From positions 372,001-436,000 of the forward strand of contig NZ_NBOF01000003.1 in NCBI RefSeq assembly GCF_002104475.1: a stretch of 64,000 nucleotides of DNA, in the 5' to 3' direction. The notes beneath the pieces are model-generated. The model was not told the origin of the DNA and ran no database searches. It saw nothing but the letters and a program-made list of their open reading frames with translations. The position numbers and the translations under genes were made by a program. This document shows, piece after piece, positions 7,011 through 41,583 of the stretch. Within the stretch, counting starts at the first letter, position 1; every line of letters starts with the position of its first letter. Origin of the DNA: Cognaticolwellia mytili. GTDB taxonomy: Bacteria; Pseudomonadota; Gammaproteobacteria; Enterobacterales; Alteromonadaceae.

Positions 7011-7155
7011 ATTTAAACCACTTCAATAAATAACCGCGCCATCATAGCAGTATTTATAATTCGGCCAAATTATTTTTCATATCAATTCTTTTCACAGCCG
7101 TTACACTGAGGTTGAGTCGTTTTTAATGTGATTGATTGTTTAAGGATTAACTTTT

Positions 7156-8199: not shown

Positions 8200-8535
8200 G
8201 TTAGTTTGTTAACAAAAGAAGAGACCATATGACCTCTTCTTTATCTCTAACATTTTTTATTATAGAGAATATTATGAAAAATAAGCTTTTATACATGCTT
8301 TTTGCTTAGCATTTTAAAAAGTAATTTGGTTGGGGTTACTTTAGACTTTTAACTCTAGTTGATTTAAGTGCTAAATAATTAAAATTTATGTAGATAAATG
8401 TTTTGTTACATTCTACTCTGATATTGAAGGTATTTACTTGTAAATGGATTTTCTCGAAGCCTGTACGGCTGAAATTTATTAATGAAGTAAACCGTGACTT
8501 AATTGGTTTGCTTAGTTTAAAAGAGGTAAATCATT
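8200..8535. other. intergenic region: terminator, abortive mini-ORF, chemoreceptor promoter region
   Basis: A hairpin (8215-8242) ends the protease gene. An 11-codon frame with a signal-peptide-like start (MKNKLLYMLFA, 8274-8309) follows an AGAG Shine-Dalgarno-like run but stops at once; it may be a remnant or chance. Small inverted repeats (GCCTGTACGGC; AAACC...GGTTT) lie before the chemoreceptor. I see no complete gene. Confidence 0.45.
8215..8242 (+). terminator. hairpin terminator after the Deg-like protease
   Basis: AAAGAAGAG pairs with CTCTTCTTT over a 10-nt loop, shortly after the stop at 8199. The T tract is weak. Confidence 0.5.
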
Positions 8536-10083: not shown

Positions 10084-10112
10084 ATAATAGTAGTGTTTAG
10101 CTGCCTATATTA

Positions 10113-10146
10113 TTAAAAAAGGAAGCAATTAAGCTTCCTTTTTTAA
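10113..10146. terminator. bidirectional intrinsic terminator
   Basis: TTAAAAAAGGAAGC pairs with GCTTCCTTTTTTAA around a short AATTAA loop between two convergent genes; A and T runs flank both sides. Confidence 0.8.
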
Positions 10147-10163
10147 TGCTCTAAAACTCGTTG

Positions 10164-25284: not shown

Positions 25285-25431
25285 TAGTTCCGAGTATTCT
25301 TTACTACCATTTATAAATGATTTCATTGCTCTTCCAAGTAAGCTAGCGCATACAAGCATTAAATTTGTTGGTTTGGTATTTGACTTTATAACTCACTACT
25401 ATATAAATGGTGCTACGATGTGAGGAAAAGG

Positions 25432-25456
25432 TAATACTAAACTCGCTTTAGTATTA
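25432..25456 (+). promoter_or_regulatory. stem-loop in the leader of the sensor kinase gene
   Basis: TAATACTAAA pairs with TTTAGTATTA over a 5-nt loop, about 20 bases before the ATG. It has no T tract. It may be a leftover transcript end or a translation control element. Confidence 0.35.
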
Positions 25457-25477
25457 TATAAATGGCAACTGAGATTC

Positions 25478-27094
25478 ATGGATAAGATAATGTCGAGTAA
25501 GGGCACATTTAATAATAAATTAAGCCGACGTGTATTTGTTTATATTTTCTTATGTAGTGCATTTTTATCAGTTTGCTCCACCATTATTCAGTTATATGTT
25601 GATTTTGAAGATGGTGTTTCTGCCTTAGATGAGCGTTTTAATAACGTTGAGTTAAGCTTTAACCAATCAATATCCACTAGCCTTTGGGATTTTAACGAAC
25701 CCTTAGTTGAGCAACAAATTGGCGGTATTCAACGCCTTCCTGACATTCGACATGTAAAAATCACTACGAGTTTTGGCAAAATATATGAAGTAGGTAATGT
25801 TATTTCGAATCCTGAAAAAGTTGAGCATTACTCAATAAAATTCGAGGGCAACACTATTGGTACTATGGTAATTTCTGCCGACTACCAAGATATTTATCAA
25901 GATATAAAGCAAAAAGCAGGCTTTATTATTACCTCTGAATTTATCAAAATTTTCATGGTGGCATTTTGTACGTTTTACATTGTGCATTGGCTGATTACCA
26001 AACATCTATATCGAATTACTCTATATTCAAAAGAATTAAGCGGGCAAAATCTAGACGTGCCATTGACATTAGAGAACCGTAAGCAAGAAACTGATGAACT
26101 TGATGAACTAGTTGATGCGATTAATGGTATGCGTTTAAGTTTAAAAACTGACATTTTTAAATTAGAGGATGCAGAAAATGCCTTGATAAATCTTAATGCT
26201 GACTTGGAAATCAAAGTCTATGAACGTACGGCGAAATTAGCGGAAAGTAATCAACAATTACAACAATCTTTAAATGAATTAACACTAGCTAAAGACCAAC
26301 TTGTACAGTCTGAAAAAATGGCCTCTCTCGGACAATTAGTTGCTGGGGTTGCCCATGAAGTAAATACCCCTTTGGGGATTTGTGTAACTTCAGTTAGTGC
26401 TTTGAAAGAAAAAATCTCTGAACTAAATGATGCCTTAATAGAAGAAAAATTAACGAAAAAACAGCTGACGTCAATATTGAGTCTTTTTGTCGAATATGAA
26501 CAAATCATAGAACGTAGTCTAAATAAAGCCGTCGATTTAATTCGAGGCTTCAAATCTGTTGCAGTCGAACAACATACCGACCCTAAAATAAATATTAATT
26601 TAGCTCAGCATGTTAGTGATGTGGTAAATACTGTAAAAACCCTATTCAAACAAAAGAACTACGCCATTAAAATTAGTGTTGATCCTGGACTTAATTTAGT
26701 GACTTTTCCTAGTGCTTGGAATCAAATACTGACTAATTTTTTGACTAACTCGCACCTCCATGGTTTTGAAGACCGCACTGATGGTGTAATTAGTATTGAT
26801 TTTCAAGTTGATGATGAAAATTTAGTACTGGTATACCAAGATGATGGCAAAGGTATTAATACCGATGTTAAAGATAAAATATTTGACCCATTTGTTACTA
26901 CTAAGCGTGGATTAGGTGGCTCGGGCCTTGGAATGAATATTGTTTATAATTTAGTGAACACTAAACTCGGTGGTACGATTAAAGTACTTGAAATCGAGCA
27001 TGGCTGCTGCTTTGTTGTTAAAGTTCCTTTGATACTCGAACAGGAAGTACAGGCAAAAAAAAAAGGTATACCTAATTTAAAAGTTATACCTTAG
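25478..27094 (+). CDS. orphan sensor histidine kinase
   Basis: A 538-residue membrane kinase. One helix near residues 17-40 and a second near residues 152-170 flank a periplasmic sensor of about 110 residues. A HAMP-like linker and a coiled coil (about residues 225-275) follow. The phosphoacceptor is His293 in GVAHEVNTPLG, and the ATPase part shows NQILTNFLTNSHLHGF (N box), DDGKGI (G1) and GGSGLGMNIV (G2). No response regulator is adjacent. It resembles the second orphan kinase at 55381-57132 in layout, and the two are probably paralogues. The start could also be the ATG four codons later. Confidence 0.88.
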   Translation: MDKIMSSKGTFNNKLSRRVFVYIFLCSAFLSVCSTIIQLYVDFEDGVSALDERFNNVELSFNQSISTSLWDFNEPLVEQQIGGIQRLPDIRHVKITTSFGKIYEVGNVISNPEKVEHYSIKFEGNTIGTMVISADYQDIYQDIKQKAGFIITSEFIKIFMVAFCTFYIVHWLITKHLYRITLYSKELSGQNLDVPLTLENRKQETDELDELVDAINGMRLSLKTDIFKLEDAENALINLNADLEIKVYERTAKLAESNQQLQQSLNELTLAKDQLVQSEKMASLGQLVAGVAHEVNTPLGICVTSVSALKEKISELNDALIEEKLTKKQLTSILSLFVEYEQIIERSLNKAVDLIRGFKSVAVEQHTDPKININLAQHVSDVVNTVKTLFKQKNYAIKISVDPGLNLVTFPSAWNQILTNFLTNSHLHGFEDRTDGVISIDFQVDDENLVLVYQDDGKGINTDVKDKIFDPFVTTKRGLGGSGLGMNIVYNLVNTKLGGTIKVLEIEHGCCFVVKVPLILEQEVQAKKKGIPNLKVIP

Positions 27095-27100
27095 TTTTAT
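27062..27100 (+). terminator. hairpin overlapping the end of the kinase gene
   Basis: AAGGTATA (27063-27070) pairs with TATACCTT (27085-27092) across the last codons, followed by AGTTTTATT. A compact terminator inside the coding end is plausible. Confidence 0.4.
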
Positions 27101-27121
27101 TGAATGTATGCTAACGGTGAC

Positions 27122-27523
27122 TTACTCATCACCTAATAACGTCAGTACCATATTCGTGTAATTTACTAGCCCTAGCACTTCTTGATTTTCGATAACGGGT
27201 GCAGTGTTGACGCCAAAATTTTCGAACAATCTTGCACAGTAGCGCACGTCCATTTCCGGGGAAACAGATAACAATGGCTTTGCCATAATTTCATATAAAT
27301 TGACTCGATCAGGTGAGCGATCTTTGGCAATAACCTGCTTAGCGATATCTGATAATAATACTAAACCGAACTCGTCATTGTCGTGGCGTTTATTTATGAT
27401 TAAGGCATTCACATTATGCTCTTTAGCAAGCTTTATGCCCTCTGCAACCGTTACCATGCCATCAGTAAATTGATAACTGTCTGTAGTCATCGCATCTTTA
27501 ACTTGCACTAATTTATGACTCAT
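27122..27523 (-). CDS. two-CBS-domain protein
   Basis: A 133-residue protein made of two CBS motifs only: VKDAMTTDSYQFTDGMVTV to GLVLLSDIAKQVI, and NLYEIMAKPLLSVSPEMDV to GLVNYTNMVLTLL. CBS pairs bind adenine nucleotides and regulate partner proteins. It is the last gene of a four-gene unit and overlaps the PII-like gene by four bases (ATGA), so it is made with it. It probably senses energy state for the DUF1538 membrane proteins; that is inference. Confidence 0.88.
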   Translation of the reverse strand: MSHKLVQVKDAMTTDSYQFTDGMVTVAEGIKLAKEHNVNALIINKRHDNDEFGLVLLSDIAKQVIAKDRSPDRVNLYEIMAKPLLSVSPEMDVRYCARLFENFGVNTAPVIENQEVLGLVNYTNMVLTLLGDE

Positions 27524-27870
27524 ATTTCTTCCTCAATTTTACCTTTCAAACGTTCAACTTGATGAGCGACACCGACAGCGTCTTGTATATCTATTTGTAT
27601 TGCTATACCTCTGCCAGGCTCTTTATCAAAGCCAGCTATAAAAGCAATACGCTCAAGAATTTTTCGACATAAATGCTCTTCGACAACAAATAATAATACA
27701 TCACGTTGCGTTTCTAGCTGCATGCCAAAAAATGTTCTTTGTCGTTTAATGCCTTCGCCACGCGCATTGTTAATAATGGTAGCGCCTGTAGCGCCAGCCA
27801 TGCGAGCCTCTTTCATCACCTTTTCAGTAACCGCATCTTCTACAAATGCAATGATCAATTTAAAGTGCAT
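27520..27870 (-). CDS. PII-like signalling protein (non-GlnB type)
   Basis: A 116-residue protein with the ferredoxin-like PII fold pattern: KLIIAFVEDAVTEKVMKEAR, GATGATIINNARGEG, and near the end EPGRGIAIQIDIQDAVGV, which aligns with the PII C-terminal GDGKIFVxDLExAIRI. The T-loop is short and lacks the uridylylated Tyr of GlnB/GlnK, so it is not a classical nitrogen regulator. PII-like proteins often gate an adjacent transporter in response to nucleotides. It lies between two DUF1538 membrane protein genes and a CBS gene. Confidence 0.82.
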   Translation of the reverse strand: MHFKLIIAFVEDAVTEKVMKEARMAGATGATIINNARGEGIKRQRTFFGMQLETQRDVLLFVVEEHLCRKILERIAFIAGFDKEPGRGIAIQIDIQDAVGVAHQVERLKGKIEEEI

Positions 27871-27885
27871 TGTGTGTTCTCACTT

Positions 27886-28650
27886 TTAGTTAGTTTTTGT
27901 TTTAATTTGGGTAATTTGTGCATAGGCCATAACCGCAATTATTGGAAATAAACTAGCAAATGCGATCAATCCAAAGCCATCGATTAATGGGCTTCTTCCT
28001 GGAATTGTACTCGCTAAGCCCAAGCCTAATGCTGCAACTAATGGCACAGTAACTGTTGAAGTTGTTACACCGCCTGAGTCATAAGCTAAAGGTACGATCA
28101 TCTTTGGACAGAAGAAGGTTTGTATAACGACCAGAATATAACCACAAATTATATAATAATGGATTGGATGGCCAACAACGATTCGGTAGCTGCCCAATGC
28201 GATGCCAATAGCAACGCCAATAGCGACAGCAATACGTAAGCTATTTGCTTTAATACCGCCACCAGAAACTTCTTCTGCTTTTAATGCTACAGCGATTAAT
28301 GATGGTTCAGCTATGGTGGTACTAAAACCTATTGCAGCAGCGAAGACATATACCCAAGTATAGTGTGTCCAATTAATCGCTTCTTCAGCCAAGGCGCTTG
28401 GGTTAATAAATGCTGGTGCTGTTAATTGTTCAGCCATCATTTTTCCTAGCGGGAATAAAGCCTTTTCTAAACCTAATAAAAATAATGCTAGGCCAATTAA
28501 AACGTAAAGAAAGCCAAATCCCACTTGCTTAATATGGGGAATAGGTCGACGAATTACTAATAATTGAAAAACAAGAATTATTGATAATATCGGCAGCACA
28601 TCAACAACTGTTGACTTTAACGTTTCAAAAAATTCTATCAATAATTCCAA
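27886..28650 (-). CDS. DUF1538 membrane protein (second copy)
   Basis: A 254-residue integral membrane protein with six to seven helices. It carries the family's conserved stretches [19 protein letters not shown] (about residues 112-130), [20 protein letters not shown] and [14 protein letters not shown]. These are polar, glycine-rich segments inside hydrophobic regions, as expected of a transport pore, but no substrate is established for DUF1538. It is a paralogue of the gene just upstream (28693-29430), with which it shares nearly identical motifs; in some bacteria the two halves are one protein. The PII-like gene begins 15 bases after it. Confidence 0.85.
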   Translation of the reverse strand: MELLIEFFETLKSTVVDVLPILSIILVFQLLVIRRPIPHIKQVGFGFLYVLIGLALFLLGLEKALFPLGKMMAEQLTAPAFINPSALAEEAINWTHYTWVYVFAAAIGFSTTIAEPSLIAVALKAEEVSGGGIKANSLRIAVAIGVAIGIALGSYRIVVGHPIHYYIICGYILVVIQTFFCPKMIVPLAYDSGGVTTSTVTVPLVAALGLGLASTIPGRSPLIDGFGLIAFASLFPIIAVMAYAQITQIKTKTN

Positions 28651-28692
28651 GTTAAAAAGCTCCGTTGAATGTAAAACAAAACGTTCGAATCA

Positions 28693-29430
28693 TTAGCTCA
28701 GTACCATGCCGTAGGCCATCACAAAAATCATTGGGGTAAGTGATGCGAACGCAATTAAACCGAATCCATCGATCATTGGATTCCTGCCTTTGATCGATGA
28801 TGCTAAACCAACGCCAAGTGCTGTTACTAAAGGCACTGTTATTGTTGATGTGGTAACCCCACCTGAGTCATAAGCGATGCCTATTATCCAACTTGGTGCA
28901 AAAGCCGTCATAATAACCACTAAGGCATAGCCACCTAAAATAAGATATTGAATTGGCCAACCACGGATAATACGTAATACCCCGATAACAATAGCTAAGC
29001 CAACGGCAAAAGCTACAGTGTAGCGTAAGCCATTTGCATATTCATTTTGTGCAACTTCTGTTGCTGCAATGATACCTCCACTAGCGGCAACAGTAGCAGC
29101 TTCTCGGGCTACTGCGATTAGTGACGGCTCAGCTACCGTAGTACCGAAGCCTAAACAAAATGCAAATGTTAATAGCCAAGAGATACTACCCTTACGAGCA
29201 AAGGCTTTCGCCATGGATTCACCAATGGGGAATAATCCCATTTCCAAGCCGTAGATAAAAAAGGTTAAGCCGAGTACAACTAATAGCAAGCCAATAAAAA
29301 TATCGCCAACATTTGGCATTGGTTGCTGTAATACTACAAACTGAAAAAAAGCGATTACGATGACGATGGGAAGCAAGTCTTTACAACTACCCAAAAGAGC
29401 TTTGAAGAAAATGATAAACTGTTGGTTCAT
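28693..29430 (-). CDS. DUF1538 membrane protein (first copy)
   Basis: About 245 residues from ATG 29430; a GTG 15 bases earlier is the alternative. A polytopic membrane protein with the DUF1538 motifs [39 protein letters not shown] and [14 protein letters not shown]. It heads a four-gene unit DUF1538-DUF1538-PII-CBS on the minus strand, with a gap of 42 bases to the second copy. The two copies probably form a heteromeric pair. The role as a PII- and CBS-regulated transporter is inference from domain company. Confidence 0.85.
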
Positions 29431-29608
29431 ATCGCTAAAAGTCACCAGAATAAAAATTTATTATACGAACCATATTGCTGAAAAATATTGATCCAAAACA
29501 AGTTCGACGTTAGTTGCTAATAAATAGTAGCACAGCGATTCTATTCGGCACGCGTAATTGTTAATTATTGTTATTAAAGAATAATTTTAATTTATATCAA
29601 AGTGTTTA

Positions 29609-31333
29609 TTAAACAAAGAAGTAAGCAGTGGCTGTCCACAAGGCACCAGCTAAAGATGCGGCTAATGTTGCCGGGACGAGTTGCGACTTTACATGGTCCA
29701 TTAAGTCACAACCTGTGGTCATCGCACTGAGAATAGTGGTGTCAGAAATTGGCGAGCATTGGTCACCAAAAACACTACCATTGAGCACAGTTGCAAAACA
29801 TAACATCATAAATAACTCTGGATTAGCTAATTCTTGGCTTTGACATATTGCCCAAGCTAAAGGCATCGCTAACGGAAAAGCTATGGCATATGTGCCCCAA
29901 CTTGTGCCGGTTGAAAATGCGATTATCATAGTGATAAGTTGTAAAATAACTGGTAAACACCAAAATGGTAGCTGCTCTCCTAATAGCGATACTAGAAATA
30001 AGCCACCGCCGGTCTCTTTACTAATACTGCCAATAATGACCGCAAGCATCAGAATTACCGAAGCGAAAACTACGCCTTTTAAGCCATTGGTAAAACCGTC
30101 AATAACATGATTTAACGACATACCCTTAACGATGGCGATAACGGCTGACAAGAGCAGTGCAGACGCAAATGCCCAGTTTATTTTCGGTGAGCCTAAAGCA
30201 ATAAAGCTGCCGATTGCGATGGCTGTTAATGTAACTAACGGCAAAACAAACTCTAAAACATGAGGTAAATATCCCTCAGGTACGTCTGAACTTTGTAATT
30301 CTTTAGCACTGAGCGGTTTTGCCGTTGGCGCGTCAAGAAGGCTTTGAGTTTCAGCTCTATATTTTGCTGCTCTAATACGTTTACCTGCGAAGGTCGTGAT
30401 ATTGAGACTTAACAGAAATGTGCCGGTAACTGCAAAAATACTGTAAAAGCTAAAAGGAATACTTTGAAAGAAGAAAGCGATTCGGTCGGCTTCCGTTGCT
30501 AAAAAAGATACTCCGGGAATAAAGATCAATGCCTGCACGTAAGCAGGCCATGCATTGAACGCAAGAATTGAAGCAATGGGTGAGGCGGTTGAGTCGACAA
30601 TGTAGCTCATTTCTTCATGGCTAACTTTTGCTTTGTCGGCTAGCGGTCGCACTGTTGTACCAACGAGTACAGTACTCATAGTGCCACCTTGAAAAAACAG
30701 TATGCCTAATAACCATGAAACTAGTTTTGCCGATCTTCTCCCTTTAACAAAATGCTTAGTCATGTAATTGGCAAACGCTTGTGCAGCGCCTGTTTTCGAC
30801 CAAACGCCAAGTAAGCCGCCAAGGAGCCATAAATAAAGTAGTAATAATGCTGCAGTGCCTTCTTTGGCAAGGTTAGGAATAATGACTTTATCTGTTAGAT
30901 CATAACGGCCTAGCATTATTGCGCCCACAACTATACCGCCAAGTAACGCTGTTAATGGCTCGCGCGTTAGAAGGCACAAGGTGATAGTAATAAATGCCGG
31001 TAGTAACGACCAAACACCAAAATGAAATGCAGGCTTTAGAAGTTTCAGCTGTTGCTGTTCATCGCTAACCCATTGTTGGCTGAGCGCTGGCGCGCCAGTG
31101 ATGTTATCTAGCTTTTGTTGATTTAGTGATGAACTTTTATAATCGACAATACTTTCAATGATGACCTTTTGCTCTTTGTATATATAGCTTGATGTTCCAT
31201 GTTCATCGGTACTGACATCGTAAACATAACTTTGCTCAATCCACTGGGGAGCAATAAATTGTTTGATATATATTGCTGAAAATACGGCGAAAATAAAAGC
31301 TAGAAAAGCAATGCTATTGTGTTTTTTGGGCAT
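29609..31333 (-). CDS. NhaC-family Na+/H+ antiporter-like transporter
   Basis: A 574-residue polytopic transporter of the NhaC type. The first 110 residues hold one helix and a soluble periplasmic stretch that NhaC itself lacks. Then come about eleven helices with family motifs [39 protein letters not shown] and, near the C-terminus, [17 protein letters not shown] and [18 protein letters not shown]. Family members exchange Na+ for H+ or for organic acids (malate/lactate in MleN). Its position beside hydroxyproline catabolism genes makes a role in amino-acid or imino-acid uptake possible, but not shown. Confidence 0.88.
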
Positions 31334-31514
31334 AGGTGCACTCTTATTATTTTTACTAAACGTGATTCAACAATATAAAAAACTTAGAAAATTGTTATGC
31401 AGTTGAGTGTATTACGTACTGTTGTAGCTTACGATAACAGAATTATTAATAGTTAGAAAAAATATAAAAGTTGAATTAAAAGGTTATTGTTGGTCAGCAA
31501 GGTAATAGAATTAA

Positions 31515-31573
31515 AGAAAGTTGCTGCAGCCAACGACGGGGATGAGCCGAAGGCCGCAGCGGTAAAAGCGCAG
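31515..31573. repeat. GC-rich inverted repeat (REP-like or terminator) after the DadA-like gene
   Basis: GCTGCAGCC (31523-31531) and GGCCGCAGC (31552-31560) form a 9-bp stem with one mismatch around a 20-nt GC-rich loop. The block is clearly richer in G+C than its surroundings and sits just past the stop of the minus-strand oxidase gene. It may be a repetitive extragenic element or an extended terminator. Confidence 0.4.
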
Positions 31574-31574
31574 G

Positions 31575-32876
31575 TTAGTTAAAACGACTGATTGAAAAAG
31601 GGCTAATATCAATATCTGTTTTTTGCCCTGACATGACTTGGCCGATAAGTTTTCCTGTTATTGCTCCTAAAGTTAACCCCAAATGTTGATGGCCAAGGGC
31701 AAGAAAAACATTACTGTGATTTGGCGCTTGGCCAATAACGGGTAAGGAGTCAGGTAATGAAGGTCTACAACCCATCCAACGCTGCTCTGGCTCTACATTT
31801 TGTGGTGAAAATGTTGGTAATTCACTTAGTAACTCTTGGGAGTTTTTATAAAGCATATTGGCACGCTTCATATTTGCTGCTTTAGTTAAACCTGCAAACT
31901 CAGCAGTGCCTGCTAACCTAAGCCCGTGTACCATTGGCGTAATAATACACTTTCGTTCGGCTGATGCGACAGGGCGTGTTAAATGTGCTTCCACTGAATG
32001 TGGCAAATCTAGGCTGTAACCTCGTTCGGCTTCAATCGGGAGCTTATAGCCTAATTGCGCAAGCAAAGGTTTTGACCAGGCGCCAGTCGCTATGACTACT
32101 TGATCAAACTCTTGAACGTCATTGATGAGCTCACCTTGTGATAAGCATTCGATCTTAATACCACTGTCAGAGCTGCTGATAGCTGAAACTTCTGCCTGTA
32201 TGAATTTGGTATCTAATTTCATGGTTTGGCTGGCAAGTACTTTACTGATCGCAAAAGGGTCTGCAGTGTGGGCTACATCAGTAAAATATAGCGAGTGGTG
32301 AATATTAAGACTCAAATTTGGTTCAAGTAATAACGTTTGTGCTCTGTCGAGCAACTTGACTGCAATTCCTGCTTTTTTATAACGATTAAACACTTTTTCA
32401 ACATCTTTACGTTTTTGACTTTCAAAAACTAGTAAGCTGCCTTTCGATGTTATTAAATGCTCTGCTTTTGCTGCTCGTAATAAGGGCTTGTAATAGTCGA
32501 TAGCATGTTTGTTGAGCGCTTTAAGTGCCGCGGTGTTTTTAGTTTTTTTACTGGTGAGCATGTTAGCAACAAACTTTAAAAACCATGGCAAAGCTTTTGG
32601 AAAATAACTTGGTGAAAGTGCCATTGGCCCAAGTGGGTCGAATAGCATTTTAGGCAACTGCCAAAGTAAACTAGCTTCAGCTAAAGGAAATACTTGCTCG
32701 GTGGCAAAATGTCCGGCATTGCGTTTCGAGCAACCTTCGCCAATACCTGCTTTGTCAATTAAGCTGACTTGAAATCCTAAGGATTGTAATTCCAAGGCAC
32801 AATTTATACCTATAATGCCAGCACCTAAAACGGCAACTTTCTTGCCTTTGTTAGTATTTACTTGTTCGTTATTCAT
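31575..32876 (-). CDS. FAD-dependent D-amino-acid (D-hydroxyproline) oxidoreductase, DadA-like
   Basis: A 433-residue FAD enzyme of the DAO/DadA family. The dinucleotide motif KVAVLGAGIIGINCALEL is at residues 13-30, followed by VSLIDKAGIGEGCSKRNAGH, where FAD contacts lie. The C-terminal part shows EPEQRWMGCRPSLPDSLPVIG and FLALGHQHLGLTLG, both family signatures. In trans-4-hydroxy-L-proline catabolism such an enzyme oxidises cis-4-hydroxy-D-proline, the epimerase product, to 1-pyrroline-4-hydroxy-2-carboxylate. The gene lies 49 bases after the trans-3-hydroxyproline dehydratase gene in one operon, so this role fits. General D-amino-acid dehydrogenase activity cannot be excluded. Confidence 0.85.
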   Translation of the reverse strand: MNNEQVNTNKGKKVAVLGAGIIGINCALELQSLGFQVSLIDKAGIGEGCSKRNAGHFATEQVFPLAEASLLWQLPKMLFDPLGPMALSPSYFPKALPWFLKFVANMLTSKKTKNTAALKALNKHAIDYYKPLLRAAKAEHLITSKGSLLVFESQKRKDVEKVFNRYKKAGIAVKLLDRAQTLLLEPNLSLNIHHSLYFTDVAHTADPFAISKVLASQTMKLDTKFIQAEVSAISSSDSGIKIECLSQGELINDVQEFDQVVIATGAWSKPLLAQLGYKLPIEAERGYSLDLPHSVEAHLTRPVASAERKCIITPMVHGLRLAGTAEFAGLTKAANMKRANMLYKNSQELLSELPTFSPQNVEPEQRWMGCRPSLPDSLPVIGQAPNHSNVFLALGHQHLGLTLGAITGKLIGQVMSGQKTDIDISPFSISRFN

Positions 32877-32925
32877 GCTCGTTTACTACCTAACGTTGTT
32901 TATTTTCTAGCGATACACTATTTGT

Positions 32926-33966
32926 TTATCGTAAAATGAAGCCTTGAGGAAAAATATCATCTGGGCTTAACATAAAATCATGACAGCCAGTGATAAATGC
33001 ACGCCCCGTCACCCTAGGAATTACTGCCGATTTATCAAAGTACTGACATTTTTGTTGAACACGTACGGTCATTTTTCCGCCGACAATACTTTCAATCACA
33101 ACATCTTGCTGCGTGGGGAGGTTTTCTTTCGCATGTAATAACGCTACTCGAGCACTAACGCCAGTGCCTGTAGGAGAGCGGTCGACTTCACCATCTGCAA
33201 ATACACAAACGTGTCGAGAATGAGAACGAGTAGAGTCAGTTTTACTCGAATAGAAAATAGTGCCGTAAAGGAAACTTAAGTCATCTTCAACGGGATGATT
33301 AATGCTGTAGCTTGCCATGACAGCACGTTTAATAACGCGGCCAACGTTGATCAACTGTTGGTTATTCTCTGGTGTACAAGCAATATTTAATTTGTCGGCA
33401 TCAACAAAAGCATAATAGGCACCGCCGAAGGCGATATCATAATTAACAGGTCCAAATTCTGGAATGTTGACCTGTTGATTTAACGCTTCAACAAAAGAGG
33501 GGACATTATCAAAACTAATTGCGAGTTTATTTTCTGCATCTTTTTCAGCATAAGCCTTAATAAAGCCTGCTGGAGCATCAATACCGATAACCTGATTTTT
33601 CTCAGGCATAGCAAGCGCTTTACTTTCAATAGCAGCAGATACCGCGGCAATAATGCCGTGACCACACATACTGCTATAACCTTCATTGTGCATAAACAAA
33701 ATGCCAAATGTTGCTTCACTGGTACAAGGTTTGGTAATTAAGGCACCATACATATCCGCATGGCCCCTCGGTTCAAACATCAGTAATTGTCGAAAATGGT
33801 CTAAGTTATCGGTTACGTATTGGCGCTTTTCTAGAATAGTATTACCTTTAATTTCAGGGTAACCATCAGTGATTATCCGTAAAGGTTCACCTTCAGTATG
33901 CGCATCTATGGTGCTAATTTTGTGATAATTTAAAAAATTATTCTTATTAAACTGCATGTTATCCAA
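32926..33966 (-). CDS. trans-3-hydroxy-L-proline dehydratase (proline racemase superfamily)
   Basis: A 346-residue protein of the proline racemase superfamily. The first catalytic site is Cys101 in SSMCGHG, but the second is Thr266 in VDRSPTGTGV in place of Cys. In this superfamily Cys/Cys proteins are racemases or epimerases, while Cys/Thr proteins dehydrate trans-3-hydroxy-L-proline to delta1-pyrroline-2-carboxylate. The call rests on these two residues. The product would be reduced to proline by the OCD-family protein at 24298, which shares its operator. It is divergent from the epimerase operon, with a palindromic GTATAC site 43 bp before its start. Confidence 0.93.
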   Translation of the reverse strand: MDNMQFNKNNFLNYHKISTIDAHTEGEPLRIITDGYPEIKGNTILEKRQYVTDNLDHFRQLLMFEPRGHADMYGALITKPCTSEATFGILFMHNEGYSSMCGHGIIAAVSAAIESKALAMPEKNQVIGIDAPAGFIKAYAEKDAENKLAISFDNVPSFVEALNQQVNIPEFGPVNYDIAFGGAYYAFVDADKLNIACTPENNQQLINVGRVIKRAVMASYSINHPVEDDLSFLYGTIFYSSKTDSTRSHSRHVCVFADGEVDRSPTGTGVSARVALLHAKENLPTQQDVVIESIVGGKMTVRVQQKCQYFDKSAVIPRVTGRAFITGCHDFMLSPDDIFPQGFILR

Positions 33967-34008
33967 CCTGAGAAATAAATTTTACTACTGGTACTTGTAT
34001 GACTCCAT

Positions 34009-34026
34009 ATATTGTATACAATATGC
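34009..34026. promoter_or_regulatory. palindromic GntR operator candidate
   Basis: ATATTGTATACAATAT (34009-34024) is a perfect 16-nt palindrome continuing to GC. It lies between the divergent dehydratase and epimerase genes and matches the site at 24234-24250 at GTATACA-N-TATGC. FCD-type GntR regulators commonly bind TTGTATACAA-like palindromes, and such a regulator is encoded at 37042. Confidence 0.65.
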
Positions 34027-34086
34027 TATATTATTTCTAGCAATAGTTTTAAATAGCTAAATAGATTTAACGGAACCAAAAGACTA

Positions 34087-34203
34087 ATGAAGAATATTAA
34101 CTGGCGAGGCGTTTACCCAGCGGTAACAACATAATACCTAGATGACATGCCTATCAATATCGACGCAATTCGCATTGATTTAAGTAAATTTAACTTAGAT
34201 TAA
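34087..34203 (+). pseudogene. remnant of a DapA-family 1-pyrroline-4-hydroxy-2-carboxylate deaminase gene
   Basis: Translation from ATG 34087 gives MKNINWRGVYPAVTT, then a TAA at 34132-34134, then YLDDMPINIDAIRIDLSKF and a final TAA. The opening W-x-G-V-x-PAVTT followed by a D-D-x-x-I-(N/D)-x-x-A segment is the N-terminus of DHDPS-family deaminases found in 4-hydroxyproline clusters. The family is about 300 residues; only 38 codons remain, and the TAA sits where Gln (CAA) is usual, so a C-to-T change explains it. The rest of the gene is missing before the epimerase gene starts at 34327. Confidence 0.75.
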
Positions 34204-34326
34204 TTCAGACTACTGTGGATTTAGTTTTACGAACTTAGGTTACTAAACTTTCACATTCTTAGTCTCTTATTTGTAAAACACTTTCCTGTTTAGGAATATT
34301 AGAAAATGACGGAAGCATAATATTAA

Positions 34327-35340
34327 ATGATTAAAGGAACTTTTATTTGTATTGACGCACATACGTGCGGTAACCCTGTGCGCTTAGTAACAAGTGGTCA
34401 CCCAAACCTACGTGGCAATACCATGAGTGAAAAACGACAAGACTTTCTTGAAAATCATGATTGGATACGTCAAGGCTTGATGTTTGAGCCAAGAGGTCAT
34501 GACATGATGTCTGGTGCTTTTTTATATCCTCCTTGCTCTCAAAATTCAGACGGCTCGATACTTTTCATAGAAACATCAGGCTGTTTGCCTATGTGTGGTC
34601 ATGGAACGATTGGTACGGTAACTGCTGCGTTAGAAAACGGTTTACTAAGCCCGAGAAATGAGGGAAAGCTTGTTCTTGATGTGCCTGCTGGGCAAATCAA
34701 TATTGATTACCAAATGCAAGGGGAGAAAGTTACTGCTGTTCGTTTAACGAATGTTGCTTCTTATTTAGCGCATGAAAATGTTGTGTTGGATATTCCTGGC
34801 TTAGGAACACTAAAAGTAGATGTTTCATACGGTGGCAACTTTTACGTTATTGTTGAGCCACAAGAAAATTTCCCAGGTATTGATCAATGGAGCGCTGGTG
34901 ATATTTTACATTGGAGTCCTATTGTTCGAGAAGTTGCAGGCAAAGCATTACGCTGTGTTCATCCTGAAGATGAAACAGTTTCTGGCGTAACTCATGTACT
35001 GTGGACTGGAAAAACACAAACTGAAGGCTCAGATGCTGCTAATGCGGTATTTTATGGTGAGAAGGCCATTGACCGTTCGCCATGTGGTACTGGCACAAGT
35101 GCTCGAATGGCACAGCTTTTTGCCAAAGGTAAACTAAACCTTGGTGATAATTTTGTACATGAAAGCTATATCGGTAGTCAGTTTGTCGGCAAAGTAGAAG
35201 AAATTGTTGAGTTGCAGTCATCCTCTGGCCCCATTAAAGCAATTAAACCAAGCATTCAAGGTTGGGCGCATGTCTTTGGAGAAAATAAAATCACTATTGA
35301 CGATAACGATCCATATGCAATGGGCTTTAGTGTTACATAA
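34327..35340 (+). CDS. 4-hydroxyproline 2-epimerase (proline racemase superfamily)
   Basis: A 337-residue superfamily member with both catalytic cysteines: Cys90 in LPMCGHG and Cys253 in DRSPCGTGT. Cys/Cys proteins are proline racemases or 4-hydroxyproline epimerases. The gene context (semialdehyde dehydrogenase 54 bases downstream, a deaminase remnant upstream, a D-hydroxyproline oxidase nearby) favours epimerisation of trans-4-hydroxy-L-proline to cis-4-hydroxy-D-proline. It is only a distant paralogue of the dehydratase encoded on the other strand. Proline racemase activity is the main alternative. Confidence 0.9.
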   Translation: MIKGTFICIDAHTCGNPVRLVTSGHPNLRGNTMSEKRQDFLENHDWIRQGLMFEPRGHDMMSGAFLYPPCSQNSDGSILFIETSGCLPMCGHGTIGTVTAALENGLLSPRNEGKLVLDVPAGQINIDYQMQGEKVTAVRLTNVASYLAHENVVLDIPGLGTLKVDVSYGGNFYVIVEPQENFPGIDQWSAGDILHWSPIVREVAGKALRCVHPEDETVSGVTHVLWTGKTQTEGSDAANAVFYGEKAIDRSPCGTGTSARMAQLFAKGKLNLGDNFVHESYIGSQFVGKVEEIVELQSSSGPIKAIKPSIQGWAHVFGENKITIDDNDPYAMGFSVT

Positions 35341-35394
35341 ATTGAATACTGACTATTCAGATTAACTAACTTAGATAAAATACAAGAGAATAAT

Positions 35395-36921
35395 ATGACA
35401 ATTACAGGTAAGAACTTAATTGCTGGGCAATGGTCTGGTGAAACACAAAATGGCTTTGTTGCCTTTAATGCAATTGAAAATACGCCGATGACGACACAAT
35501 TTGCAGATGCTACTAAGGCTGAAGTTGATAATGCCATTCTTGCGGCCCAAAGCGCATTTTCTATTTATAGTCAGCTACCCGCAGTTCGACGAGCGACCTT
35601 TTTACGTACTATCGGTGAACAAATCCTTGAATTAGGTGATGAGCTAGTTGAAACGGCTTGTGCAGAAACGGGCTTGCCAGCGATGCGTATTCAAGGTGAG
35701 CGTGGGCGTACAATTGGGCAACTTAATTTATTTGCCGATTTACTCGAAAAAGGTGAATACGAGGCGGTAATTGATTTAGCGGATCCTGAGCGTGCCCCGC
35801 TACCTAAGCCTGAAACACGTCTGGGCTATTTACCTTTAGGTGTTGTTGGTGTTTTTGCGGCTAGCAATTTTCCTTTGGCTTTCTCTACCGCTGGCGGTGA
35901 TACTGCATCAGCATTGGCTGCAGGTTGCCCAGTAGTGATGAAAGCACATGCAGCACATCCTGCAACTGCTGAATTGATCGCCCAAGCTATTTTAAAAGCG
36001 ATGAACTTAGCAGATATTGATACGGGTGTATTCTCACTAGTGCAAGGTAAGAGCTATGATATTTCTAGCCAAATAGTAACTCATCCATTGATTAAAGCTG
36101 TTGGTTTTACTGGCTCAGAACGAGTAGGTATGATCCTTCAACAGCAAATAAACCAACGCGATGAGCCAATACCTTTTTATGGTGAGCTAGGCAGCGTTAA
36201 TCCGCAATTTATTCTCGCTAATAAATTAAAAAATGATACCAAAGAAATTGCCTCTGGTTTAGTTGCATCGCTTATGATGGGCCAAGGTCAGTTTTGTACT
36301 AGTCCTGGTGTATGGTTTGTGGTCGATGCTGAGCAATATAGCGAGTTTGCTGAAACTGCCGCAGCTGATATCGCTCAAACACAGGCTGGTGTGATGCTAA
36401 CGCCAGGCATAGCAAACTCATACAAAAATGCCATTAATCAGTGGCAAAATATTGAAGGCGTAGAGTTATTAGCTCAAGGGCAAGCGGGGCTAGCACATTT
36501 TTGCCAAGCAGCATTGTTTAGTGCTAATTTAGCGACATTTGCCAACAATGCTTTACTACAAGAAGAGGTGTTTGGCGCTTCCGCATTAATAGTAAAATGT
36601 GCTGACTTTAATGAAATGATGCAAGGTATTGCTTTATTGAAAGGTAATCTCACTGCAAGTATTCATGCGCTGGAATCTGATATTGAAGATGCTAAAACGG
36701 TTGCCAATATCGCTGCCCATAAAGTAGGACGTTTAATTTATAATCAAATGCCAACAGGTGTTGAAGTTTGTGCATCGATGAATCATGGTGGTCCTTTCCC
36801 TGCATCAACAAACATTCGTACAACCTCAGTTGGCAGTGAAGCGATAAAACGTTTTCAACGTCCTATTTGTTATCAAAACATGCCAAGTGAATTATTACCT
36901 GAGTTACTAAAAAGTAAATAA
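35395..36921 (+). CDS. alpha-ketoglutaric semialdehyde dehydrogenase
   Basis: A 508-residue aldehyde dehydrogenase. NAD-site motifs include GVVGVFAASNFPLAFSTAGG (about residues 148-167) and VGFTGSERVG; GELGSVNPQFI holds the general-base Glu, and the nucleophile Cys301 lies in MGQGQFCTSPG. The FPLAFSTAGGDTASALAAGC stretch is typical of the KGSADH branch (type III) linked to hydroxyproline or sugar-acid pathways. It oxidises 2-oxoglutarate semialdehyde to 2-oxoglutarate, the last step of trans-4-hydroxyproline degradation. It forms an operon with the epimerase, followed by a strong terminator. Confidence 0.92.
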   Translation: MTITGKNLIAGQWSGETQNGFVAFNAIENTPMTTQFADATKAEVDNAILAAQSAFSIYSQLPAVRRATFLRTIGEQILELGDELVETACAETGLPAMRIQGERGRTIGQLNLFADLLEKGEYEAVIDLADPERAPLPKPETRLGYLPLGVVGVFAASNFPLAFSTAGGDTASALAAGCPVVMKAHAAHPATAELIAQAILKAMNLADIDTGVFSLVQGKSYDISSQIVTHPLIKAVGFTGSERVGMILQQQINQRDEPIPFYGELGSVNPQFILANKLKNDTKEIASGLVASLMMGQGQFCTSPGVWFVVDAEQYSEFAETAAADIAQTQAGVMLTPGIANSYKNAINQWQNIEGVELLAQGQAGLAHFCQAALFSANLATFANNALLQEEVFGASALIVKCADFNEMMQGIALLKGNLTASIHALESDIEDAKTVANIAAHKVGRLIYNQMPTGVEVCASMNHGGPFPASTNIRTTSVGSEAIKRFQRPICYQNMPSELLPELLKSK

Positions 36922-36956
36922 TATCGTGTTTTTTTAATGATTATAATGAATAAATC

Positions 36957-36990
36957 AAAAGAGTTATTAGCAATAACTCTTTTTTTTTGT
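36957..36990 (+). terminator. intrinsic terminator after the semialdehyde dehydrogenase gene
   Basis: AGAGTTATT pairs with AATAACTCT over an AGC loop, followed by eight T. Confidence 0.9.
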
Positions 36991-37041
36991 GTTTAGCGCG
37001 TGGATCTCTATAATAGCGGTAACATCCTTAGGAAGTCTTGT

Positions 37042-37713
37042 ATGAGCATAGTATATAAAACCAGAACTCAATTAGTTGTTGAAACACTTAGAGAAAAGAT
37101 TTTAAGTGGTGAGGTTAAAGCTGGTCAGCCGTTGCGACAAGCAGCCTTAGCGGAAGAGTTAAACGTCAGTCGTATTCCTATCAGAGAAGCGCTATTGCAA
37201 TTAGAAGGTGAGGGCTTAGTGGCATTTGAACCACATAAAGGTGCTACCGCAACTGAATTAAATGCTGATCAAGTTGATGAGTTATTTGAGTTACGTGCAA
37301 TGTTAGAAGCTGACTTACTTGCGAACTCATTACCTAATCTTAGTAATGAGAAGCTTGAAGAAGCGGCGCAATTATTGAAAAAACTCGATAAAGCTTTAGG
37401 TAAAGAGAATGCCGCAAACACTTGGAGTGAGCTAAACTCTGATTATCATAATTGTTTATATTCAGGTGCTAATCGTCCACAAACTCAAGATTTGGTTAAT
37501 ACTTTAAATAAGAATGCCGATCGTTACATTCGCATGCACTTACTTTGGGCGGGTGGTATTTCTAAAGCTGAGTCAGAGCACAATGAAATATTGGCATTAT
37601 GTAAAGCCCGTGATATTGAAAAGGCTATTGCTTTATTACAACAGCACATTTTGGGGTCTCGTGATGAGATTAAAGCTTTTCTTAATGAGCGTGAATCAAT
37701 CATTAGTGGTTAA
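37042..37713 (+). CDS. GntR family (FCD) transcriptional regulator of hydroxyproline genes
   Basis: About 223 residues from ATG 37042, chosen because AGGAAG lies upstream and it begins just before the HTH; an earlier in-frame start (37000) adds 14 unlikely residues. The winged HTH covers residues about 8-72 (LVVETLREKILSGEVKAGQ, RQAALAEELNVSRIPIREAL, LVAFEPHKGATAT). The C-terminal FCD domain (about residues 80-210) has the acidic and histidine ligands of this ligand-binding fold (FELRAMLEADL; SEHNEILALCKARD). It has its own promoter after the terminator. It is the likely reader of the GTATAC operators at 24234 and 34009. Confidence 0.9.
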   Translation: MSIVYKTRTQLVVETLREKILSGEVKAGQPLRQAALAEELNVSRIPIREALLQLEGEGLVAFEPHKGATATELNADQVDELFELRAMLEADLLANSLPNLSNEKLEEAAQLLKKLDKALGKENAANTWSELNSDYHNCLYSGANRPQTQDLVNTLNKNADRYIRMHLLWAGGISKAESEHNEILALCKARDIEKAIALLQQHILGSRDEIKAFLNERESIISG

Positions 37714-37839
37714 TTTAAGTAAATAATCCGTCGTATTTCTCCGACATTAAAAAACTTGATACTTGCTTGAAAATCTTGGTGTATTTTTGAACGTATATTG
37801 ACTTTTTATTGAATTATCTATAGTATTCCCGCGCCCTCA

Positions 37840-37956
37840 AGCCCCGAAAAATAACGATTTTTGTTTAGGTTGCCTATCATTAGGTTAATCACGGGGCTAA
37901 ATCTAAAGCCAAAGTATTTAAACATCAGCCAATGAGATATTTCGGCTGGTGTTTTT
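37840..37956 (+). promoter_or_regulatory. structured leader RNA (riboswitch- or attenuator-like) before the SulP gene
   Basis: AGCCCCG (37840-37846) pairs with CGGGGCT (37892-37898) to close a junction. Inside are AAAAAT/ATTTTT with an AACG tetraloop (37847-37862) and CCTA/TAGG with a TCAT loop (37873-37884). CCTA can instead pair with an upstream TAGG (37866-37869). Downstream, GGGGCT can also pair with AGCC at 37907-37910, and a terminator-like hairpin (37921-37953) lies 30 bases before the ATG. Mutually exclusive stems before a terminator are the layout of a riboswitch or attenuator. I do not recognise it as a known family. Confidence 0.5.
37921..37956 (+). terminator. terminator-like hairpin before the SulP ATG
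   Basis: AACATCAGCC pairs with GGCTGGTGTT (one T-G pair) across a 13-nt loop, then TTT G. Being upstream of the gene, it could act as a conditional terminator. Confidence 0.55.
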
Positions 37957-37983
37957 GATGTTTTAATCAACGTAGAGAAAATA

Positions 37984-39540
37984 ATGTTTGAATTACACGC
38001 CAGTAAAGCGGCAAATTTGAAAAATGATATGCTGTCGGGTTTAACTGTAGCCTTAGCATTAGTACCTGAAGCTGTTGCATTTGCATTTGTTGCAGGTGTG
38101 GAACCTTTAGTCGGACTATATGCTGCTTTTATGGTAGGCCTTATCACCTCAATATTTGGTGGTCGACCAGGTATGATTTCTGGAGCAACTGGTGCCATGG
38201 CTGTTGTTATGGTGAGTTTAGTTGCCATTCATGGTGTTGAATATCTATTTGCGACAGTGGTTCTCACCGGGGTATTGCAAATACTGGCGGGGCTATTTAA
38301 GCTCGGTAAATTTATTCGTTTAGTACCGCACCCGGTCATGCTAGGTTTTGTTAACGGCTTAGCGATTGTAATTTTTCTTGCGCAACTAGGTCAATTTAAA
38401 GTTACAAATGACGCCGGCGTATTAGAATGGATGCAGGGTAGTCAGCTATTTACCATGGCAGGGCTTATCGTGTTGACGATGGCGATTATTCATTTTCTTC
38501 CTAAATTAACTAAGGCTGTGCCATCTTCTTTAGTAGCTATTGTTGTAGTAACCTTGCTAGTACAAAGCCTTGATTTGGATGCTCGAACGGTTGTTGATTT
38601 TGTTCGTGATATGACTAACGATCCTGCTGCTTCAATTGCTGGAGGTTTACCACAATTTAGTATTCCTAATGTACCGTTTAGCTTTGAAACCTTTCAGGTT
38701 ATCTTACCTTTTGCTCTTGTTTTAGCGGCTATTGGTTTAATTGAGTCATTGTTAACATTAACTTTGATTGATGAACTAACTGGAACGCGTGGTCGCGGTA
38801 ATAAAGAATGTATCGCTCAAGGCGCAGCAAATACTGTTACAGGTTTCTTCGGCGGTATGGGGGGCTGTGCGATGATTGGTCAATCAATGATCAATGTAAA
38901 CTCTGGTGGTCGTGGCCGTATGTCAGGCATCACTGCTGCACTTGCGCTGCTTGGTTTCATTTTGTTCGCCTCTGGATTAATTGAACAAATACCATTAGCT
39001 GCACTGGTTGGTGTGATGTTTATCGTCGTAATTGGTACATTTGAATGGTCAAGTTTTCGTATTGTAGGCAAAGTGCCAAAGGCTGATGCCTTTGTTATTA
39101 TTTTAGTTTCTGGTGTTACGGTTGCCACTGATTTAGCGATTGCGGTTATTGTTGGTGTTATTGTTTCAGCATTGGTATTTGCTTGGGAGCATGCAAAACA
39201 CGTTATCGTTCATCGCTCAATTGATGACAATGGCTCTACGGTTTACGACGTAACGGGACCATTATTTTTTGGCTCAGTATCGAACTTTCTTGAGCAGTTC
39301 GATATTGAAGCGGATAGTGATGATGTTATCGTTGAATTTAAAAATACCCGTGTTGCTGATCACTCAGCAATTGAAGCGATTGATACCTTAGCCGAGCGGT
39401 ATATCAGTAGCGGTAAGAAAATGCATTTGAAACATTTAAGCAAAGAATGTACGCAACTATTGACTAAAGCAGGTAGTCTGGTAGAAATTAATGTTATTGA
39501 AGACCCGGATTACCATATAGCGACAGATAAGCTAGGCTAA
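37984..39540 (+). CDS. SulP family anion transporter with STAS domain
   Basis: A 518-residue transporter. About twelve helices cover residues 10-410, with [20 protein letters not shown] near the N-terminus and ATGAMAVV, both SLC26/SulP motifs. A STAS domain follows at about residues 430-510 ([39 protein letters not shown]). Family members import sulfate, bicarbonate or other anions, often with Na+. The substrate cannot be told. The leader carries a complex RNA fold (37840-37956), so expression may respond to a metabolite or ion. Confidence 0.93.
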
Positions 39541-39558
39541 ATTAGCTTTAAGTTTGTG

Positions 39559-39622
39559 CCCGATATGGCTGAGCTATACTTAAAGTAAAGTAGCTTGAGT
39601 ATTTAGTACGGTTCATATCGGG
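39559..39622. repeat. extended stem-loop between SulP and DUF1289 genes
   Basis: CCCGATATG (39559-39567) pairs with CATATCGGG (39614-39622). Within the loop AGCTA pairs with TAGCT and TACT with AGTA, giving a second hairpin. It follows the SulP stop by 19 bases and precedes the next start by 35 bases. There is no T tract, so it is not an ordinary terminator. Confidence 0.45.
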
Positions 39623-39657
39623 AAGTGACTATGCAGAAAATGGTTGATAATAATTAG

Positions 39658-39963
39658 ATGCAATTAGAATTTTTTGAGGTTCCTAGTCCATGTATTGGTA
39701 TTTGTCAGTCAGATGACAAAGGTCAATGCTCGGGCTGTTTTCGAACCCGTGAAGAACGATTAAATTGGGTCTCGTTTAATTCTGATGAACGTCAAAAAGT
39801 TATTAAACGCTGTCAACAACGCAAGAAACGAAAGTCAGCCCCTGCAAAAGTAAAAGTTGCAGAAGTTGAAGTCGTAGAAAAACAACCATCATTACTTGAT
39901 CCACCAGCTAAAGCTAAAATCAGCAACAGCGATGATTTTGATTTTGGTGATTTCGAACTTTAG
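39658..39963 (+). CDS. DUF1289 family protein
   Basis: A 101-residue protein. Residues about 10-55 match DUF1289: SPCIGICQSDDKGQCSGCFR, then E-R-L-N-W and K-R-C. The four conserved cysteines suggest a small metal-binding or Fe-S domain. The C-terminal half is Lys/Val/Glu-rich, then acidic (DDFDFGDFEL), and probably disordered. Function is unknown in the family. Monocistronic. Confidence 0.85.
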   Translation: MQLEFFEVPSPCIGICQSDDKGQCSGCFRTREERLNWVSFNSDERQKVIKRCQQRKKRKSAPAKVKVAEVEVVEKQPSLLDPPAKAKISNSDDFDFGDFEL

Positions 39964-40056
39964 CCTTTAATTCCCCCTCCATTTACCGCAGATAATTGTC
40001 TATTCAACGCAATTCAACGCCCGTAGTTAATAGCAGACTTGTTGTTGTTAACATTT

Positions 40057-40073
40057 CATCATATTGTATGATG
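40057..40073. promoter_or_regulatory. inverted repeat before the amidohydrolase operon
   Basis: CATCATA and TATGATG form perfect 7-bp arms with a TTG centre, about 128 bp before the first start. Possible operator; no regulator gene is adjacent. Confidence 0.3.
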
Positions 40074-40200
40074 CTAATATTGTGTTAATGCGATTAGCCT
40101 TAATACAATGACGCACACTGATAATAATAAGCTCATTACCACTTTGTCTGAATAACGAGATGTTTTTCTGCAAGGTATGCAGCAAAACAGGAATATTCTT

Positions 40201-41583
40201 ATGCAAAAGTTTCTCCCATCATTAGTGATGGCAGCTCTTTCTGTGTCTTTAACTGGCTGTTTGCAAAGCGAACAACAAGACGCAAAAGTACTGATTAATA
40301 AAAACCCTTACCCAAGTACCTACCAAGCATTACCTAAACAAAATATCTTAATTAAAAATGCCACGGTATTAACCGGAACAGGCGAGCGTATTGATAATGC
40401 TGATGTATTAATGGTTGATGGTAAAATTAGCCAAATTGGAAGCGCGTTAACGGCGGCTGATGCTGTTGAAATTGATGCACAAGGTAAGTGGATAACGCCG
40501 GGAATTATCGATGTGCATTCGCATTTAGGTGTCTACCCAAGTCCATCGGTTGAATCTCATTCTGACGGCAATGAAATGTCTTCTCCAAATACCTCTGAAG
40601 TGTGGGCAGAACATAGTGTTTGGCCACAAGATCCTGGTTTTGAAGCGGCGCGAGCTGGTGGTATTACGACTTTACAAATACTCCCTGGTTCGGCAAACCT
40701 CTTTGGTGGTCGTGGTGTAACACTGCGTAATGTGCCAAGCCAAACCATGCAGGGTATGAAGTTTCCTGCAGCTCCTTATGGTTTAAAAATGGCTTGTGGT
40801 GAAAATCCAAAGCGTGTTTATGGAGGTCGTAAAGTTTTACCATCAACTCGTATGGGCAATATGGCTGGCTATCGTATGGCATGGGCAGAAGCGACAGAAT
40901 ATAAACGTGCTTGGGAAAAGTATGATGCAGATTATGCGGCCGGTAAAAACCCTGAAGCCCCAGTTCGTGATATTGAACTTGATACTTTAAAAGGTGTGCT
41001 TGACGGTGAAATATTGATCCACAATCATTGTTACAAAGCCGAAGAAATGGCGATGATGATTGATTTAGGTAAAGAGTTTAATTACCACTCAGGTACCTTT
41101 CATCACGGTATAGAAGCTTACAAAATTGCTGATACCTTGGCTGAAAACGGTAACTGTGCTGCTATGTGGCCAGATTGGTGGGGTTTTAAAATGGAAGCTT
41201 ATGACATGGTGCATGAGAATGTTGCCATTGTTGATGCGGTGAAAAACTCTTGTGCGATTGTGCATTCCGATTCTGCTAATACGATTCAGCGCTTGAATCA
41301 AGAAGCCGGTAAAGTGATGTACCGTGCTAATGAAAATGGTTTTGAAATCAAACCTGAATTAGCAATTACTTGGATCACACAAAATGCTGCAAAATCATTA
41401 GGTTTAGCTGAAAAAACCGGTAGTTTACAAAAGGGTAAAAACGCTGACGTGGTTATTTGGAACCAAAATCCATTTAGTGTTTATGCACAAGCAGAGCAAG
41501 TATTTGTTGATGGCGCAAAAGTATATGATCGCCATGATGAAAAATACCAAGCGAAAAGCGATTTCCTGTTAGGTCAGAGATAA
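40201..41583 (+). CDS. amidohydrolase lipoprotein (imidazolonepropionase-like)
   Basis: About 460 residues from ATG 40201, preferred because AGGA lies upstream and it starts a clean lipoprotein signal (SLVMAALSVSLTGC, lipid Cys20). An ATG at 40177 would add 8 residues. The amidohydrolase fold shows the metal motif GIIDVHSHLG, further histidines in IHNHCYK and YHSGTFHHG, and the Asp in AIVHSDSAN. The C-terminal composite beta domain reads GSLQKGKNADVVIWNQNPF. Family members hydrolyse amide or imide bonds, here in the periplasm; the substrate is unknown. The next gene, an amidohydrolase relative, overlaps its ribosome site. Confidence 0.88.
   Translation: MQKFLPSLVMAALSVSLTGCLQSEQQDAKVLINKNPYPSTYQALPKQNILIKNATVLTGTGERIDNADVLMVDGKISQIGSALTAADAVEIDAQGKWITPGIIDVHSHLGVYPSPSVESHSDGNEMSSPNTSEVWAEHSVWPQDPGFEAARAGGITTLQILPGSANLFGGRGVTLRNVPSQTMQGMKFPAAPYGLKMACGENPKRVYGGRKVLPSTRMGNMAGYRMAWAEATEYKRAWEKYDADYAAGKNPEAPVRDIELDTLKGVLDGEILIHNHCYKAEEMAMMIDLGKEFNYHSGTFHHGIEAYKIADTLAENGNCAAMWPDWWGFKMEAYDMVHENVAIVDAVKNSCAIVHSDSANTIQRLNQEAGKVMYRANENGFEIKPELAITWITQNAAKSLGLAEKTGSLQKGKNADVVIWNQNPFSVYAQAEQVFVDGAKVYDRHDEKYQAKSDFLLGQR

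Follow-up and report, generated by a model that had tools for sequence, protein, structure and literature searches.

The HypR regulon has been described in Proteobacteria: HypR, a GntR-family regulator, controls hypE, hypO, hypD and hypH and has TonB receptors as extra targets in Alteromonadales (PMC5343134, PMC3223726). The step acting on 1-pyrroline-4-hydroxy-2-carboxylate (Pyr4H2C) is catalysed by DHDPS-family proteins, as is established (Watanabe 2012, cited in PMC4113996), and in the collagen-utilization hyp clusters of C. piezophila and C. psychrerythraea GAB14E the deaminase was stated to be missing (PMC7883544). The locus studied here lies in the genome of Cognaticolwellia mytili (G000), in a window of 64,000 nucleotides, the whole stretch of DNA that was analysed. 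It is like the published regulon in its GntR regulator and its hypE/hypO/hypH core; it differs in that the regulon descriptions, in their accessible text, present a single hypD and mention neither a second deaminase type nor a hypD remnant (PMC5343134, PMC3223726). The classical Pyr4H2C deaminase gene (hypD/lhpC) has been lost in G000, a 117-bp stub being its remnant, and we propose that it became dispensable once a distantly related DHDPS-family enzyme, here called type 2, took over the step.

The hyp operon and its deaminase stub

The features of the operon are given in Table 1, in which KGSADH stands for alpha-ketoglutarate semialdehyde dehydrogenase; the oxidase, the aldehyde dehydrogenase and the GntR regulator matched the expected families at scores below the equivalog cut-offs. 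The stub translates as MKNINWRGVYPAVTT, TAA, YLDDMPINIDAIRIDLSKFNLD, TAA. The sequence-only reading had taken it for the start of a broken deaminase with TAA where CAA is expected, and this is borne out by searching positions 33967-34326 (360 bp) against related genomes at the DNA level. A congener, G007, matched query bases 7-202 with 81% identity (E 9e-47) and, about 800 bp further on, bases 199-238, corresponding to the stub's last bases, with 88% identity (E 5e-7); between both matches it carries an intact hyp-operon deaminase gene of 305 codons, whose product starts with MKNINWKGVYPAVTTQYFDDMSINFDA and ends with ATRIDLSKFNLD and in which codon 16 is CAA. The similarity to the deaminase N-terminus is therefore present, and the tail of the stub, which the earlier reading had overlooked, is the true C-terminus: the stub joins in frame two pieces of the classical DHDPS-family (DapA-family) deaminase, about codons 1-27 and about codons 296-305, and the missing segment amounts to 267 codons (305 - 38), or 801 bp, also in frame. 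The 38-residue stub alone found no match in NCBIfam; its homology was settled by the DNA search and by the intact gene of the congener. Since GCAAC flanks the lost segment on both sides in G007, a slippage deletion would suit its origin.

Table 1. Features of the hyp locus, in window coordinates
Feature	Position	Strand	Basis or remark
FAD-dependent D-hydroxyproline dehydrogenase-like (HypO)	31575..32876	-	D-amino acid dehydrogenase families; operon position
Proline-racemase-family, trans-3-hydroxyproline dehydratase-like, divergent	32926..33966	-	NF045511 374 bits, below cut-off of 540
HypR-like operator ATTGTATACAAT, perfect palindrome (putative)	34011..34022		divergent intergenic region
hypD pseudogene	34087..34203	+	DNA alignment to intact 305-aa G007 gene; same stub in G015
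TAA at codon 16 (CAA in intact G007 gene)	34132..34134	+	alignment; G015 identical there
Deletion junction, exact point ambiguous	34163..34170	+	best breakpoints at stub bases 77-83
4-hydroxyproline epimerase (HypE), intact	34327..35340	+	NF010578 579 bits, cut-off 376
KGSADH-like aldehyde dehydrogenase, intact	35395..36921	+	2,5-dioxovalerate/KGSA dehydrogenase families, below equivalog cut-off; operon position
GntR-family regulator, HypR-like	37042..37713	+	GntR families; position as in published HypR regulon

The stub falls short of a full-length gene in a decisive part, as the YNNP and K165 codons lie inside the deleted 801 bp; with the catalytic Tyr and Lys lost, its predicted product is incapable of enzyme activity and the gene, judged in this way, is dead. 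By itself, the stub is an ordinary pseudogene. Draft genomes can show false frameshifts or nonsense calls, and the stub might accordingly be a sequencing or assembly error; nevertheless, the separate assembly of another species, G015, shares both the 801-bp deletion and the TAA (97% identity over all 360 bp, with 11 differences), and the chance of an error is practically negligible. A functional leader peptide was also considered and no sign of one was found, the two species differing at 5 positions in the 117 bp, 2 of them residue-changing. TAA is found as well at the aligned codon of the pseudogene of a further genome, G016; it may have been inherited by G000, G015 and G016 or have arisen in parallel, and the gene trees of HypE, KGSADH, GntR and SulP did not resolve the branching of G007, G016 and G000/G015.

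Synonymous divergence between G000 and G015 is uneven across 24298-41583: it is 0.10 over 31575-36921, rises to 0.73-0.80 in the GntR and SulP genes, falls to 0.07-0.13 directly after them, and amounts to 0.7-2.6 upstream of the NhaC gene. Such jumps look like the mosaic left by recombination, and G000 and G015 may therefore have exchanged the stub allele.

The operator in the divergent intergenic region is a putative binding site of HypR. No other place in the window matches it with fewer than 2 mismatches, and the examined relatives carry the same operator in their hyp operons. The promoter scan near the stub gave no plus-strand sigma-70 consensus match and no terminator. Because the operator has been retained and the epimerase gene follows directly, the stub's promoter probably serves the epimerase now, one of the outcomes the sequence-only reading had foreseen. 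That reading had also described the epimerase, the oxidase and the dehydrogenase as looking intact, and all three are intact, with dN/dS values of 0.06-0.13 between G000 and G015 (0.02-0.13 with the regulator included), ratios by which these enzymes are under purifying selection. A broken 4-hydroxyproline pathway, with the rest of the operon decaying, would agree with the dead deaminase gene and with an assembly holding no homolog above about 31% identity. It is nevertheless very unlikely, given that the remaining genes and the regulator are intact in both stub species and that more than 40 further HypE-positive genomes without the classical gene retain HypE together with type 2. The pathway is thus probably not dead, although the classical gene is.

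A distant DHDPS-family gene as the candidate replacement

The genome of G000 contains four DHDPS-family genes, L001 to L004, of which L001 and L003 exceed the DapA cut-off. L004, the type-2 gene, lies on another contig (G000:C12:621710-622681), encodes 323 amino acids with about 30% identity to the lost deaminase, and has a dN/dS of 0.09. The suggestion of a deaminase encoded elsewhere is consequently supported for a member of a distinct DHDPS subfamily and not for a duplicate of the classical gene, as the genome search for such a copy returned nothing closer than about 31% and offered this distant candidate instead.

Type 2 belongs to the DHDPS/NAL superfamily (PF00701, 89.8 bits against a cut-off of 22.1; TIM-barrel fold, Schiff-base Lys and YNxP), and its predicted structure, with a mean pLDDT of 80, has the DHDPS fold. 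NCBIfam provided no curated equivalog for it, and among solved structures there was no close one, the best reaching 61 bits. It stands outside the classical sequence subfamily, whose members found in the order share 41-89% identity with the enzyme of G007. An identity of about 30% is by itself insufficient to fix the reaction; comparison of the type-2 and classical profiles gave an E-value of 1.6e-30, and in 43 columns one and the same residue is invariant in both families, among them GTxGEN, YNNP, the Schiff-base lysine (K185/K165), GVD and LDxxP, with 10 of the 43 residues absent from the DapA types and from L002. The classical deaminase (HypD/LhpC) has PF00701, a place in the pathway given by context, and its operator and motifs in common with type 2, which differs from it in its length, in a short insert near residues 45-52 and, in Alteromonadales, in a usually separate locus.

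The remaining gene, L002 (G000:C1:155600-156463, 28% identity, beside a class II aldolase-like gene), might perform the deaminase step, since it is by E-value the best match in the genome to the lost enzyme (2e-34, with type 2 reaching 8e-26) and contains YNNP as well as the lysine. However, it has no operator site, no hyp neighbour within the 3.9 kb around the gene, no counterpart in G016 or in another type-2 genome, G027, and none of the GEN, GVD and LDxxP motifs common to type 2 and the classical enzyme, and we regard its involvement as extremely doubtful. G016 and G027 themselves have no DHDPS-family gene beyond the DapA types and type 2.

The type-2 gene of G000 is preceded, at about 50 bp, by AATGTATACAAT, which has 1 mismatch against the operator of the hyp operon. 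Across the entire genome only four places match the degenerate palindrome TWNTGTATACANTA, namely the hyp operon, the type-2 gene, a TonB-dependent receptor gene and an oxaloacetate decarboxylase operon, as against one match for the reversed control pattern. The copy just upstream of the TonB-dependent receptor gene is perfect (L092, G000:C12:700025; near 7026-7039), in agreement with the published HypR targets in Alteromonadales. Another perfect copy precedes the Na+-transporting oxaloacetate decarboxylase operon by about 180 bp (L093, G000:C16:597132; near 7133-7146, genes at 7322-10518), which is a possible further target of HypR. Among the first nine type-2 genes examined, all nine have the operator with 0-1 mismatch, at different chromosomal sites; it is absent at the Flavobacteriaceae and Undibacterium copies.

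Distribution and proposed horizontal movement of the type-2 gene

In an order-wide survey of 394 genomes, in which type 2 comprised close relatives of at least 82% identity and phylogeny was ignored in the counts, type 2 was present in 7 genomes, the classical deaminase in 39 and HypE in 41. All seven type-2 genomes have HypE (Fisher p 8e-8, phylogeny ignored) and six of them miss the classical gene, which is present in 28 of the 34 HypE genomes without type 2 (Fisher p 0.001, again ignoring phylogeny). The six exceptions among the 34 are four genomes of one genus with a third DHDPS gene in the operon, one with a fragment (G157) and one that is 80% complete and has neither classical gene nor type 2 (G197). 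In the former four (L161, L162, L166 and L167, in G272, G416, G299 and G408), the gene in the hyp operon is about 30% identical to the classical one and perhaps represents a third type. G157 has HypE, no type 2 and a fused 138-residue fragment of the classical deaminase (L160:11095-11511), and its only other non-DapA candidate is a distant DHDPS gene with 28% identity (G157:C27:21009-21701). As G007, which has the intact classical gene, is only 66% complete, it could hold type 2 as well.

A second collection was obtained by scanning named genomes with the type-2 protein, which gave 80 loci, 78-97% identical, from Colwellia, Thalassotalea, Shewanella, Pseudoalteromonas, many Flavobacteriaceae and Undibacterium. 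In the 47 of these type-2 genomes searched whole, a 4-hydroxyproline epimerase was always found (43 with this HypE type and 4, all Undibacterium, with the other type) and an intact classical deaminase only once. Both deaminase types are kept in Shewanella UCD-KL12 and in G339. Type 2 is thus associated in genomes with HypE, HypO and KGSADH: it is mostly clustered with their genes in Flavobacteriaceae and adjoins the hyp operon in several Colwellia and in two to three Shewanella-type genomes, and in Undibacterium it lies apart from the hyp genes. The two clusters reported to lack a deaminase, in C. piezophila and C. psychrerythraea GAB14E, have the type-2 gene 0.3-0.8 kb beyond the D-hydroxyproline dehydrogenase gene (L178, L180).

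This context also bears on the reaction. The DHDPS family includes lyases and aldolases, and sialic acid lyases and DHDPS are the solved structures whose folds come closest to type 2, so that type 2 might act on hydroxyproline-derived intermediates in another way, for example as an aldolase, with Pyr4H2C handled otherwise. Against this, its cluster partner in Flavobacteriaceae is the KGSA dehydrogenase, needed only if KGSA is made, and the deaminase is the only step left without a gene; such a different reaction seems highly improbable. Judged from context, type 2 is very probably a Pyr4H2C deaminase, and it would convert 1-pyrroline-4-hydroxy-2-carboxylate to KGSA by means of its Schiff-base lysine.

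In many type-2 genomes the classical gene is broken at its old place, with differing breakpoints, and others have no trace of it. The remnants comprise codons 1-63 with several stops in G016, codons 3-16 and 287-305 in C. piezophila, 253-305 in Colwellia 12G3 and 75C3, 4-39 and 282-304 in Colwellia RSH04, 3-40 and 296-305 in G027, 4-48 and 277-305 in Pseudoalteromonas EB27, and 4-87 and 259-305 in Shewanella kaireitica; in S. electrodiphila the gene is broken in the middle, and four flavobacterial loci have fragments of it. Head and tail are frequently preserved together. Since the head borders on the promoter and operator and the tail on the start of hypE, we infer that the deletions which persist are those sparing both.

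Several observations suggest that the type-2 gene spread by horizontal transfer. Between Colwellia and Flavobacteriaceae its identity is about 80-85%, compared with about 60% for HypE, and between G000 and G016 its synonymous divergence is 0.61, compared with about 2 for HypE and KGSADH. Its neighbours vary between genomes, and within one genus G266 has type 2, at a locus matching Thalassotalea algicola, and G166 has the classical gene. Type 2 probably arrived horizontally with its own HypR operator, and its arrival would have preceded the loss of the classical gene. We therefore hold it very probable that the classical deaminase has been displaced repeatedly, in G000 and in others, by the horizontally moving type 2.

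Significance for hydroxyproline and collagen utilization

A literature search covering mainly non-subscription papers found none that names a second deaminase type. The 'missing deaminase' of the two Colwellia collagen clusters would be explained by type 2, and a conserved DHDPS subfamily that none of the curated models searched names would gain a testable function. Genomes with both genes, with a broken gene and with the gene gone form a natural series in which an enzyme is displaced by a distantly related one that the same regulator would control. On the whole, it seems reasonably likely that a Pyr4H2C deaminase of a second kind, which has some selective advantage and travels as a lone gene accompanied by its own HypR site, has repeatedly displaced the classical one in Colwellia, Thalassotalea, Shewanella, Pseudoalteromonas and Flavobacteriaceae; one captured step of this process would then be the stub. 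Since hydroxyproline is a major component of collagen, the deaminase step is relevant to marine collagen breakdown.
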